In this document: piece after piece, positions 1,950 to 9,437 of the stretch | How positions within the stretch are numbered: position 1 is the first letter of the stretch | How the letters are laid out: each line of letters begins with the position of its first letter | Assembly (NCBI GenBank): GCA_009692265.1 | Contig: SHZM01000010.1 | Location: 1-64,000, forward strand | Direction: 5' to 3' | Length of the DNA: 64,000 bases | Source: Gammaproteobacteria bacterium | GTDB lineage: Bacteria > Pseudomonadota > Gammaproteobacteria > Ga0077536 | The notes under the pieces: generated by a model | What the model was told of the DNA's origin: nothing | The model's database searches: none | The model's input: the letters and a program-made list of their open reading frames with translations, nothing else | Position numbers and translations under genes: made by a program

Positions 1950-2543
1950 TCACCGAATATATTTCGACATTGCATACCCGTTGTGGTGAAGAAATTCGCC
2001 AACCTTGCGTGCTTGCGCGGGCGGCGGAATGGCAAAATTAAAGCTGTCGGCCAAGCGGTCCATCACCCCAAACAGGAACGCGACAGTGTTCGCTTCGCGG
2101 ATTGCGGTATCACTCACGCCAGCTGTGCGTAGCGCGATGATGTCCGCGGATGACAGTTGCGTGGGATTCAACACCAGCTTTTCGAGGTAGCCGAGCATGG
2201 CGCGCAGGCGCGAATCGGGTGCGGCGCGCCAATCCTCGAGCACGGCTTGCACCACTGCCGGATCCATCGCCAACACCGCGACCGCGGTGTGACCGCCAGT
2301 TCAGTAGCTACAGTGATTGAGCTTGGAGACGAAGGCCGCGAACAGCTCGCACTCGGCGAGGCTCCATTCGCTCGCCTGGCGCAGTCCCTGTTGCAAGCAA
2401 TCGCTGAAGCGACGACCGAACCAGGCACCGCGATAGGTCAGTACCTTGATCGGGCCTGGCACATGGCCTAGGCGATGCCGGATCAACCGGAACACCAGCT
2501 TCTGGGTCCAGCGGTGGCCGTGTTCAAGAATTGCCAGTCTCAT
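1950..2543 (-). CDS. AhpD-like / carboxymuconolactone decarboxylase family protein, candidate selenoprotein (in-frame TGA at 2301-2303 read as Sec)
   Basis: ORFs 2301-2543 and 1950-2276 are in the same frame, separated only by TGA. Joined reading: ...ELFAAFVSKLNHCSY-U-TGGHTAVAVLAMDPAVV..., placing U at the second Cys of the AhpD CxxCxxxH motif. SECIS-like hairpin immediately downstream. Confidence 0.7.
2273..2290 (-). promoter_or_regulatory. candidate bacterial SECIS hairpin
   Basis: Minus-strand RNA ACACCGC-GGUC-GCGGUGU: perfect 7-bp stem, GGUC tetraloop, stem beginning 10 nt after the TGA. Confidence 0.55.
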
Positions 2544-2872
2544 AGCGAGGCCTCGTCCAGTAATTCCAGCGTTTTCTCAAAGCGCCCGAGCGCCGCACCG
2601 ACCGCGGCGGCCACCGTGAGTTCGAAAATCTGATCCTCACTCAACCCCGCCTGCGTGAGTGCGGCGAGGTCGCGCTCCGTCACCTTGTACGCTGTACGGC
2701 TGACTTTATCGACATAGGGTGTGAGTGCAGGTGGCAGTGCACTTGGATCACGCTGCGCGCCAGCCCCAAGCGCGGCGTGATCAGTCGCGGCTACGCGCAG
2801 TTCGCGCGCCAGGTGGCCCTGAGATCCGTGCAGATTGTCGAGAAAACCGCGGACTAGGGGTGGTAGGTGCAT
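2540..2872 (-). CDS. small carboxymuconolactone-decarboxylase-associated protein (likely start MHLPPLVRGFL)
   Basis: YKVTERDLAALTQAGLSEDQIFELTVAAAVGAALGRFEKTLELL resembles the helical part of CMD-like proteins; overlaps the downstream AhpD-like start by 4 nt. Confidence 0.55.
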   Translation of the reverse strand: MHLPPLVRGFLDNLHGSQGHLARELRVAATDHAALGAGAQRDPSALPPALTPYVDKVSRTAYKVTERDLAALTQAGLSEDQIFELTVAAAVGAALGRFEKTLELLDEASL

Positions 2873-4569: not shown

Positions 4570-5412
4570 TTAGAACACAATCGGCAGCACCAGATGTTCG
4601 GTATAGATAAAGTCGCGATGGGGACCTAGGATTGGGCCTACCGCGGCGGCGATGTCCGGATCGTGATTGACGTAGGACGGCCGATAGCTGCTCGCCATCG
4701 GACAGAGATCGGGCGGCAGCGGATCGATCAAGGCATAGAACGTCGCGAAGTAGATGTCGAGCGCGGATAATTGCTCACCGATGAGGTAACGACGTCCTTG
4801 TCGCTGTTGCGCGGACAATTGCGCACCGAGCGCCTTCAAGATGTCGATCGCACGCGCTTTCGCGGCGAGGCCACGCTCGGGGGTATACAGATATTTATCG
4901 CCCAAGGTTTTCCAGAAACTATAACCTTCGTCCTGCGATGACATCGAGCTCAGCGCGGCGTGCACGAGCAGCAGTCGCTTATTCCACCCAAAGCCGTTTT
5001 CACCGGCAAGCTCGTTGATGAACCCGAACATGTGCATCCGCTCGGTGCTATCGCGGGGTACTAAGCGCGGCTCCGGCGCAAGTCGTTCGGCCAGGTTGAT
5101 CTGATCGATCCACGAGGAACGCGGGCGCTCGTCGTTCCAGATCGCGACTGGCGCGCTTGATTGCGCCGTCCACGCATAAAGCTCGCTCTGGGTGCCACCC
5201 ATGCCAAATTCGAGATCGGAGGCTCCCTGGTTGGCGGTACACACCGAGGCGTAGGCAATCCCCTTCACATCGAACAAACCCTTACAGGCCTCGCGCCACG
5301 GTCCCGGAATCGGATACGCGCCGAGTACCAGGCGCAGTCCCGAGCGCTGTTCCGCTTCGGCGATGCTGAGATAATCGAGTTGAATATCGTTAAAGCCTAT
5401 GGTGTCACTCAT
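4570..5412 (-). CDS. glutathione S-transferase-like protein
   Basis: GST-type C-terminal helical region (YLIGEQLSALDIYFATFYALIDPLP). Confidence 0.6.
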   Translation of the reverse strand: MSDTIGFNDIQLDYLSIAEAEQRSGLRLVLGAYPIPGPWREACKGLFDVKGIAYASVCTANQGASDLEFGMGGTQSELYAWTAQSSAPVAIWNDERPRSSWIDQINLAERLAPEPRLVPRDSTERMHMFGFINELAGENGFGWNKRLLLVHAALSSMSSQDEGYSFWKTLGDKYLYTPERGLAAKARAIDILKALGAQLSAQQRQGRRYLIGEQLSALDIYFATFYALIDPLPPDLCPMASSYRPSYVNHDPDIAAAVGPILGPHRDFIYTEHLVLPIVF

Positions 5413-5590
5413 GGGTGGTTCGTCCGCTTGGCAATGGACCTACGATAGCCGCGTCACCGATGGGTTGTCACCAACCTCGAGCGAATAATGCTCGTACCGC
5501 ACAGGCAATCGGTTGGATAATAGGTGTCTGCCGGGACGGCTAGTTCGCGGCGAGGCTAAATTTTTAGGGTGGCGACTTAACGGAGGTCGA

Positions 5591-7675
5591 ATGCAAAACC
5601 GATATCGATGGGGATTCCTGGCCGCACTGCTCGTGAGTTCGCTCGCGCTTGCCGACACCGTGGTTGACGGCGCGTCGATCACCGATGAACAGCAGGGTGC
5701 CAACTGGTTGTCGTTTGGGCGTACGTATTCGGAGCAGCGCTTCAGCCCGTTAACGGCGATCAATGTCGATAACGTCAAGCAGCTCGGTCTTGACTGGTTG
5801 CTTGAATTACCCGGCGAACGCTCGTTGCTTTCAACTCCGCTGGTGGTCGACGGCATGATGTATTTCACCGCGAGTTACAGCGTTATCTATGCGGTTGATC
5901 TGCGGTCGCGCCAAATCGCTTGGACCTATGATCCAAAAGTGCTCGATGCCGCGGGCGAGCGCGCGCGAATTTTCTGGGATTCGAATCGCGGAGTCGCCTA
6001 CTGGAAAGGCAAAGTCTTTGTCGCGACTGGCGATGGCCGCTTGCTCGCGGTCGATGCCAAAACCGGCAAACAGGTGTGGAGTGCGCAGACCACCGATCCG
6101 ACGAAACCGCTCTATATCAACGGTGCGCCGCGTGCGTTTCGCGACAAAATCCTGATCGGAAACGGCGGCACCGAGGTCGGCGCGACGCGCGGTTATGTGA
6201 CGGCCTACGATGCTGTCACCGGCGAGCAGGCCTGGCGGTTTTATCTGGTACCGGGGAATCCGGCGGACGGGTTTGAGGACGAGACGCAGGCCATGGCCGC
6301 CAAGACCTGGACCGGTGAATGGTGGAAGCACGGCGGCGGCGGGAATTCCTGGCACGGCTGGACCTACGATCCGGAATTTAATCGGATCTACATCGGTACG
6401 GGTAATGGCTCGCCGTGGAACCGCAAGATCCGCAGCCCCGACGGTGGCGATAATCTTTTCCTGTGTGCGATTGTCGCGCTCGATGCCGATACCGGCAAAT
6501 ACGCTTGGCATTACCAAACCACCCCTGGTGAGACCTGGGATTACAACTCGAACATGGACATCGTGCTGGCCGATCTGAGTATCGACGGCAAGCCGGTAAA
6601 AGCGCTGATGCACGCGCCGAAAAACGGCTTTTTCTATGTGATCGATCGCAGCACCGGAAAGCTGATCTCAGCCGAGAAGATCGGCAAGGCAACGTGGGCA
6701 ACCCATGTCGATCTAAAAACCGGCCGACCAGTCGAAGTCCCGGGCGCGCGTTACGAAGACGGCGAAGAATTAATCTATCCGGGCCCGTTTGGTGTCCATA
6801 ACTGGCACGCGATGTCGTTCAGTCCAGCGACGGGTCTCGCCTACTTGCCGATCCTCGAATTGCCCTTTGTGTTTACCGATAAAGATGAAAAACCCGCGAC
6901 CTGGCAATCGCCGAGTTTTGAGTTGGATCCCGGCGTGCGGTTCTCGCCGGGTGATGAGGTTGAGCTGAAGATCGATGCGGCATGGTTGCTCGCCTGGGAT
7001 CCGGTGAAGCAGAAAGAAGCCTGGAAGGTAAAACTGCCTGGAGTGTGGAATCCCGGCACGATGACCACCGCCGGATCGCTCGTGTTCGAAGGTCGGGCCG
7101 ATGGCCAACTGGTGGCCTACCGCGCCCAGGATGGTGAATCCTTGTGGACCTTCGATACCAAAGTCGGGATCTCGGCACCGCCAGTCACCTATGAAGTCGA
7201 TGGCAAGCAATACATTTCACTGCTGGTTGGCTGGGGTGGCGGTGGGGCGTCGGCGGCCGGAAATGTCACGGCCCAGCACGGCTGGGCGTATGGCGTGCAT
7301 CCACGCCGCCTGCTGACATTTGCGCTCGACGGCACCACCGCACTACCACCGACCCCTGCGCCACATCTCACGCAGCCGGTGGTGCAGGAAGATTTTAAGA
7401 TCGATCCGCAGCTAGCGGACGGCGGCAATACAATTTATGGGCGCAAATGCTTAATCTGCCATGGCGTTGGCGGCGTGGCGGGAGGGTACGCGCCGGACCT
7501 GCGTGAATCGCAGGTCCCCTTGTACCTGGAAGCACTGCGCGACGTGGTAGTCAACGGCAGTCGTCACGAACGCGGCATGCCACAGTTCAAGGAACTAACC
7601 GACAAGGATCTCACCGCGCTTCAACACTACCTTCGTTATCAAGCGCGAGCAGGAGCCAAGGCCGCGTCGAAGTAG
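5591..7675 (+). CDS. PQQ-dependent dehydrogenase, methanol/ethanol family (quinohemoprotein) with C-terminal cytochrome c domain
   Basis: Signal peptide MQNRYRWGFLAALLVSSLALA; beta-propeller W-motifs (GKQVWSAQT, GKYAWHYQTTPGETWDYN); C-terminal CLICHG heme site. Confidence 0.9.
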   Translation: MQNRYRWGFLAALLVSSLALADTVVDGASITDEQQGANWLSFGRTYSEQRFSPLTAINVDNVKQLGLDWLLELPGERSLLSTPLVVDGMMYFTASYSVIYAVDLRSRQIAWTYDPKVLDAAGERARIFWDSNRGVAYWKGKVFVATGDGRLLAVDAKTGKQVWSAQTTDPTKPLYINGAPRAFRDKILIGNGGTEVGATRGYVTAYDAVTGEQAWRFYLVPGNPADGFEDETQAMAAKTWTGEWWKHGGGGNSWHGWTYDPEFNRIYIGTGNGSPWNRKIRSPDGGDNLFLCAIVALDADTGKYAWHYQTTPGETWDYNSNMDIVLADLSIDGKPVKALMHAPKNGFFYVIDRSTGKLISAEKIGKATWATHVDLKTGRPVEVPGARYEDGEELIYPGPFGVHNWHAMSFSPATGLAYLPILELPFVFTDKDEKPATWQSPSFELDPGVRFSPGDEVELKIDAAWLLAWDPVKQKEAWKVKLPGVWNPGTMTTAGSLVFEGRADGQLVAYRAQDGESLWTFDTKVGISAPPVTYEVDGKQYISLLVGWGGGGASAAGNVTAQHGWAYGVHPRRLLTFALDGTTALPPTPAPHLTQPVVQEDFKIDPQLADGGNTIYGRKCLICHGVGGVAGGYAPDLRESQVPLYLEALRDVVVNGSRHERGMPQFKELTDKDLTALQHYLRYQARAGAKAASK

Positions 7676-9437
7676 CTGGCTTAAACCAATTTGTAGGTTG
7701 GGGTTCGCCAGGCTCACCCAAATCTGCTTTTTCCAAGGCGAACACCCACAGCACCCCGCCTTGCGGGACGTGGGTGGTGCGGCCAAACGCTTTATCGAGA
7801 TATTCCTGCTTGCGCTGCGCATCAACGCCCCAGCCGGATTGCACGGCAATGTATTGGACCCCATCGATCTCATAGGCGGTGGGCACGCCGACGACGCCGG
7901 AGTTAGTGCGCTGTTGCCACAGTACTTCGCCGCTGGCGGCGTCGAAGGCGCGGAAATTACGATCGTTAGTCCCGCCCGCAAACACCAAACCACCCGCGGT
8001 CGTTAGCACCGGGCCCCAATTGTGAAACGGAAATTTCGCGGTCCACACTTTTTTCCCGGCATTCAGATCCCACGCCTGTAACTCCCCGATGTGATCTTTC
8101 GCTTGCGCATGGGGGAAGACTTCAAGATTTTTCAACGACACGCCCAGGTAGAGTTCACCAGGGCGATACTTCGCGGGCTCTCCGGTAAACGCTCCACACA
8201 GATTCTCATTCGCCGGAATGTAGAGATAACCGGTGTCCGGGTTGTAGGCGGCAGGCGGCCAATCCTTACCACCCCACAAGCTCGGACAAAACTCGGTGCG
8301 CTTGCCAAGGTGTGGCACGGTTTCAGGCGCATAGTCCGGACGACCGGTGATCGGATCGAGCGAGCGATAGATATTTTGGCGCACATAGTTTTGGGCACCG
8401 ATAAATCCGATCGCGTTCGGTTTGCGCTCCAACAGCCAGAGGTAGCCATCACGGCCGACATGCACCAGCGCTTTGCGTGTTTTTCCGTCACGGGTGAGGT
8501 CCACGAGCAAGGGTGCGGAGACTTCATCCCAGTCCCACGAATCGTTCCAGTGATATTGGTGATGCGCGCGGATGGCACCGGTGTCGACGTCCAAGGCGAG
8601 CAGCGAGCTCGAATACAGGTTATCGCCGGGACGGGTCTCACCGATCCAGGGACCGGCGTTGCCGGTGCCCCAGTAAGTGAGCTTGGTTTCAGGGTCATAG
8701 CTGCCCGTGACCCACACTGGCGCGCCGCCGCGCTTCCAGCTATCGCCGGGCCAGGTCTCGTGGCCTGGTTCACCGGGGCCGGGGATGGTGTAAGTCTTCC
8801 ATAGCGGTTTACCGTCGGCCGCGGCGAACGCCTGGATGAATCCGCGCGTGCCGAATTCGCCGCCCGACACGCCGATCAGGATCTTGCCGTCGATCGCGAG
8901 TGGCGCGAGCGTCATGTAGTAACCGGCGAGATAATCCTCGACTGGTTGATCCCACAGCGGCGTGCCGATTTGGGCGTCGAGTGCGATCAGGTGTGCATCC
9001 ACGGTCGCGATATAGACCGCGTCACCGTAGAGCGCGACGCCGCGGTTGGTCGGGTGAAGTTGAAATAAATCTTCGGGCAATTCGCGTTGATAGCGCCACA
9101 CCAGTTCGCCGCTACGCGCATCGAGCGCGAGCAGGTGATTTTGCGGGGTGGTGATAAACAGCATCCCGGCATTAACGATCGGCGGTGCCTGATGTGCCTC
9201 CAGCATGCCGGTCGAGTAAGTCCACACCGGGCGCAGCCGTTGAACGTTGTCCCGCGTAATTTGCTTAAGTTTGCTGTAGCCCCAACTGTTATAGCTGCCG
9301 CGATACATCAGCCAATTGCCGGGCTCGGGGTGTTGCAGTCGCTCAGCGGTGACGGTGGCGTACTTCGGTAGGTCGGCCGCGGTGGCCGAGAACAGGCTAA
9401 ACAGCAAGTACGAGGTCAGGAGAGAGGATCTCAGCAT
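7611..9437 (-). CDS. PQQ-binding beta-propeller protein (quinoprotein dehydrogenase-like), no heme domain
   Basis: Signal peptide; repeated GKPLWKTYT, GELVWRYQ, GEVLWQQRT propeller motifs; no CxxCH. Confidence 0.85.
   Translation of the reverse strand: MLRSSLLTSYLLFSLFSATAADLPKYATVTAERLQHPEPGNWLMYRGSYNSWGYSKLKQITRDNVQRLRPVWTYSTGMLEAHQAPPIVNAGMLFITTPQNHLLALDARSGELVWRYQRELPEDLFQLHPTNRGVALYGDAVYIATVDAHLIALDAQIGTPLWDQPVEDYLAGYYMTLAPLAIDGKILIGVSGGEFGTRGFIQAFAAADGKPLWKTYTIPGPGEPGHETWPGDSWKRGGAPVWVTGSYDPETKLTYWGTGNAGPWIGETRPGDNLYSSSLLALDVDTGAIRAHHQYHWNDSWDWDEVSAPLLVDLTRDGKTRKALVHVGRDGYLWLLERKPNAIGFIGAQNYVRQNIYRSLDPITGRPDYAPETVPHLGKRTEFCPSLWGGKDWPPAAYNPDTGYLYIPANENLCGAFTGEPAKYRPGELYLGVSLKNLEVFPHAQAKDHIGELQAWDLNAGKKVWTAKFPFHNWGPVLTTAGGLVFAGGTNDRNFRAFDAASGEVLWQQRTNSGVVGVPTAYEIDGVQYIAVQSGWGVDAQRKQEYLDKAFGRTTHVPQGGVLWVFALEKADLGEPGEPQPTNWFKPATSTRPWLLLALDNEGSVEAR

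Follow-up and report, generated by a model that had tools for sequence, protein, structure and literature searches.

Surveys have included AhpD-like selenoproteins since 2005, and to our knowledge no substrates or partners have been assigned to them. Those with a CxxU motif fall under TIGR01926/COG2128 (PMC1088965, PMC2398784, PMC13188914). In the AhpD of M. tuberculosis (MtAhpD) the proton relay is E118-C130-C133-H137, and proteins of the AhpD-like type usually form hexamers, with trimers or dimers in some cases (PMC3141380). The AhpD-like protein DR1765 of D. radiodurans is needed for H2O2 resistance, to which its CxxC contributes (PMC8945050); reference 146 of that paper describes its structure, and PDB entry 6k40 is presumably DR1765.

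Our analysis of 64,000 nucleotides of a gammaproteobacterial draft genome (positions 1 to 64,000 of contig SHZM01000010.1, here called the window) indicates that one locus (table 1) very probably codes for an AhpD/CMD-superfamily selenoprotein, with a SECIS-guided Sec at codon 81, AhpD-type chemistry and a coupled partner. A single minus-strand frame runs from an ATG at 2543-2541 to a terminal TGA stop at 1952-1950 and is broken only by the in-frame TGA at 2303-2301, so the two open reading frames that the original prediction had joined are indeed one gene. With this TGA read as Sec, the product is one 197 amino acid protein (...SKLNHCSY-U-TGGHTAVAV...). The family-like sequence continues beyond the TGA, as had been claimed: the Pfam CMD profile (22.8 bits) and TIGR01926 (77.2 bits, residues 17-170) both align through it, and the protein of a Holophagales MAG, which is 42% identical overall and has TGA at the identical codon, is 46% identical after the TGA (E 7e-24) and 39% before it. 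In an alignment of 23 homologues codon 81 sits in an invariant Cys/Sec column; the in-frame UGA occupies a site that is Cys in homologues, as expected of a bacterial selenoprotein, and the placing of Sec at the second Cys of CxxC is strongly supported by this column together with the Sec machinery, the SECIS element and the relatives described below.

Table 1. Features of the locus (window coordinates)
Feature	Position	Strand	Evidence
AhpD-like selenoprotein gene	1950..2543	-	Open frame, full-length homologues, AlphaFold2 mean pLDDT 90.6
In-frame UGA, predicted Sec81, second position of CxxU (C78-S-Y-U81-T-G-G-H85)	2301..2303	-	Alignment; TGA in relatives
Predicted bacterial SECIS hairpin, ACACCGC-GGUC-GCGGUGU	2273..2290	-	Compensatory changes, bSECIS rules, fdhF-like loop
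Catalytic stretch: E66 (2348-2346), C78 (2312-2310), U81 (2303-2301), H85 (2291-2289)	2289..2348	-	Invariant in alignment
Partner stop overlapping the Sec-gene start (ATGA)	2540..2543	-	ATGA in 7 of 8 loci
Partner gene, 110 amino acid AhpD-like protein without CxxC	2540..2872	-	Homologue upstream of the Sec gene in 8 of 8 intact loci

Each of the seven relatives (L018, L106, L107 and L140-L143), which come from search sets centred on an Acidobacteriota genome, has TGA at the position of codon 81; searches of 396 genomes of the phylum of the Holophagales MAG and 149 of its class gave six further clade members, all with TGA there. In a phylogenetic tree the eight genes form one clade (support 98/92), and the window gene adjoins that of genome G690 (100/90). 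Among proteins of solved structure, E. coli LepA comes closest to the LepA of the window organism, which is therefore probably a gammaproteobacterium; the other clade members were found in Acidobacteriota-centred searches, so transfer of the gene between phyla is likely. All eight members thus have Sec codons at a site where homologues at large have Cys or Sec, and a search with a profile of the partner (below), covering 149 genomes from the class of the Holophagales MAG and 369 from the window organism's own class, found no Cys form of the paired clade; it returned only more Sec pairs and a self-match in an ordinary Cys gene. Beyond the clade, the Acidobacteriota-centred searches also returned numerous AhpD-like genes whose matched region contains a TGA, many of them with one in-frame TGA whose place was read in the fetched loci; in the loci retrieved after the first search the Sec motif, where found, is CxxU in every case. 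Other TGA-containing matches from the search of the window organism's own phylum (L090-L095) were rejected as Sec genes; they have a plain CxxC active site, and the TGA or TAA near the end of the domain is an ordinary stop. Other AhpD-type genes with a TGA occur in relatives from the same order (L050, G019:C83, and L051, L052 and L053) and encode a 199 amino acid form with CTYU and CFYU proteins resembling NF041238; directly downstream of the TGA gene in L051 and L053 lies a selA-like frame.

In all eight clade loci the gene immediately before the Sec gene encodes a partner of about 100-113 amino acids, its stop overlapping the Sec-gene start as ATGA in seven and as TAATG in L106, an arrangement that suggests translational coupling. 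In the window the start at 2872 is the likely one, although there is another in-frame ATG upstream. None of the eight partners has a CxxC motif. Three of the four that were scored give weak matches (22-24 bits) to the C-terminal part of TIGR01926 and that of L107 does not match, and a predicted model of the partner resembles AhpD-like proteins with a weak fold match (E 0.015). A profile comparison of the partner with the NF041238-like proteins of L051-L053, which asked whether the pair might be a split version of that fused protein, gave E 0.026 and a probability of 1.9%. Since AhpD-like proteins are mostly oligomeric (above), the partner probably hetero-oligomerises with the Sec protein, and its most likely role would be in assembly or regulation of the Sec subunit.

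Could the small gene instead be an unrelated passenger, with a Sec protein that works by itself as other AhpD-like proteins do? No comparable partner turned up in the searched flanks of further AhpD-like Sec genes (L108-L113, L117-L120 and others), and the weak TIGR01926 matches of the partners would fit this explanation as well, but it leaves unexplained an overlapping upstream partner in every clade member at loci whose other neighbours differ wherever they were examined, and we consider it unlikely. Of the four loci inspected (the window copy, L018, L135 and L136), just the first has flanking genes for a BVMO, an EthD protein and a cupin; the other three have instead a MoxR-type ATPase, RecN/IspH-like and other genes, recognised by eye. 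A role in ketone or aromatic catabolism, which the original prediction had drawn from the window's neighbours, was dropped on this account, and the small CMD-like neighbour named in the same argument proves to be the one conserved partner. Further along the window, two convergent PQQ-dependent dehydrogenase-like genes, at 5513-7675 (+) and 7611-9437 (-), have listed frames that overlap at their 3' ends. Taken from gene order and overlap, a functional partnership of the two AhpD-like proteins is probable. A more far-reaching version, which we put forward only tentatively, is a two-subunit selenoenzyme in which the Sec chain would be active only as a hetero-oligomer with the coupled AhpD-like half-chain that lacks CxxC, in a clade that is seemingly obligately selenium-dependent and has seemingly passed between phyla.

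The Sec protein has the all-helical AhpD fold in a confident AlphaFold2 model, and E66, C78, C/U81 and H85 are invariant among the 23 aligned homologues; the resulting pattern, E-x11-C-x2-C/U-x3-H, has spacing identical to that of the MtAhpD relay, whose residue roles (PMC3141380) we adopt, and so places the protein in the AhpD/CMD superfamily. The structures most similar to the model are AhpD-like antioxidant proteins, with 3c1l first and 6k40 near the top (TM 0.74-0.75). We consider AhpD-type thiol/selenol redox chemistry quite probable on these grounds, and because the four residues match the AhpD proton relay, reduction of peroxides or of thiol-disulfides is the likeliest reaction. In the mechanism we propose, SelB and Sec-tRNA, directed by the hairpin just 3' of the UGA, would insert Sec at position 81 and so create an active site of the CxxU type (C78-x-x-U81-x-x-x-H85, with E66). 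The U81 selenol would attack a hydroperoxide or disulfide, C78 would resolve the selenenyl-sulfide with E66 and H85 acting in the proton relay, and a cellular thiol or lipoyl-type reductant would recycle the enzyme in AhpD-like fashion, while the partner without CxxC would assemble with, or regulate, the Sec subunit. A different chemistry, such as reductive dehalogenation of the kind carried out by the debrominase Bmp8 or another reaction of a selenol nucleophile, could be entertained, as Bmp8 (6ohi/6ohj) is among the fold and profile matches and the stretch read showed no gene for AhpC, AhpE or a reductase next to the Sec gene. The antioxidant proteins 3c1l and 6k40 are, however, far closer relatives than Bmp8 in structure and sequence (E 7e-50 versus 2e-8), and the E-C-C-H relay is complete in the window protein, which makes a departure from AhpD-type chemistry improbable.

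That the UGA at codon 81 is decoded as Sec is almost certain, judged from comparative evidence for a SECIS element and from the gene content of the genome. The window hairpin has a 7 bp stem (-15.9 kcal/mol) and a GGUC loop that begins 17 nt after the UGA; the same loop is present in the E. coli fdhF sequence, where we take it to start 18 nt after the UGA. An fdhF-like GGUC-loop hairpin with compensatory base changes follows the UGA at this 17 nt spacing in all eight clade genes, and the window hairpin satisfies the bSECIS rules as given in PMC13188914. Across 13 Sec genes the 6 bp stem is 98.7% paired with 10 cells in which both sides have changed, and the covariation score is 0.404 against 0.119 for shuffled alignments (0 of 500 shuffles reach it, and slid controls lie far lower); these genes are related sequences and were picked for an HxA-type motif after the UGA and a visible hairpin, so the figures describe a shared hairpin and are not a blind test. 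In an unselected comparison, 10 of 20 Sec genes but none of 77 Cys homologues had a stem of at least 5 bp at this place. Single-sequence folding of the window hairpin region is unexceptional for its composition (z -1.46), and the case for the SECIS element therefore rests on comparison; a synonymous-recoding test gave a modest p of 0.02 for the window gene alone and was weak for some Sec relatives. A second group of Sec genes, of the HGEDL type, has a slightly different hairpin loop.

Searching the window's genome for the Sec-decoding genes, as the original prediction had advised along with the SECIS search, recovered a tRNA-Sec with anticodon TCA (64.2 bits, above the cut-off), selB (424 bits) and an Ndh-SelD fusion in which SelD is joined to an NADH-dehydrogenase-like domain (291 bits; L097 583-2811, G000:C42), all by family models, and a selA-like frame adjoining selB that was assigned by its position and sequence, not by a model score. 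Ndh-SelD is a known fusion. With tRNA-Sec, SelB, a SelA-like frame and SelD all present, the genome has the machinery expected of a selenoprotein's host, and by its gene content the cell should indeed be able to decode UGA as Sec. tRNA-Sec is also present in 32 of 36 genomes of the window organism's order and, at 69 bits, in that of the Holophagales relative. A random nonsense change of a Cys codon, in a pseudogene or through a sequencing error, would need only one base change from TGC or TGT, and the genome is a draft in 118 contigs; but the frame is intact elsewhere, seven related genes from different genomes share the TGA at this codon, and a covarying SECIS hairpin and the whole Sec machinery are present. 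Such conservation already refutes the pseudogene reading, and the earlier argument that a random nonsense mutation would rarely fall on this codon can be put more strongly, as that origin is practically excluded. Real decay of this gene pair looks different: genome G035 has a remnant (L049, about 4783-5131, G035:C28) in which an internal deletion fuses the N-terminal part of the partner to the last 44 amino acids of the Sec protein. Readthrough of the UGA as another residue, by a suppressor or an alternative code, would fit the open frame taken by itself but has a negligible chance of being correct, given a Sec gene that itself terminates at TGA, homologues with only Cys or TGA at codon 81, and tRNA-Sec, SelB and a SECIS hairpin all in place.

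Genes of this kind would be missed, split or dropped by ordinary gene finders and annotation, and the many AhpD-like genes with an in-frame TGA in the Acidobacteriota search set would be split or dropped in the same way. With its fixed and overlapping partner gene, the clade offers a concrete complex for expression and testing. We found no description of the fixed partner of the Sec clade in the literature searched, and its arrangement, eight Sec genes each with an overlapping small AhpD-like gene without CxxC and no Cys form found, seems to be unreported. With the known AhpD-like CxxU selenoproteins the window protein shares superfamily, the position of Sec in CxxU, a SECIS element just after the UGA and a length of about 180-200 amino acids; it differs in its divergent N-terminus, its separate clade with a partner lacking CxxC, and its TIGR01926 score, for among the four clade members scored against the curated cut-off of 81.8 bits the window protein (77.2), L106 (75.7) and L107 (77.2) fall short and only L018 (120.2) exceeds it. 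NF041238 (AhpD_rel_CFYUT) shares Sec and the CxYUT active site, and its C-terminal AhpD region aligns, but it describes one chain of about 357 amino acids with a cut-off of 175, whereas the locus described here has two genes (110 and 197 amino acids) and its Sec protein scores 33.4 bits, over the C-terminal part only. The Cys proteins 3c1l (mlr4105) and 6k40 (Deinococcus radiodurans AhpD) share the fold and the E-C-C-H arrangement and have Cys where the window protein has Sec. Bmp8 belongs to the same fold family, but it is only 16-17% identical and is a biosynthetic dehalogenase with a Cys nucleophile.
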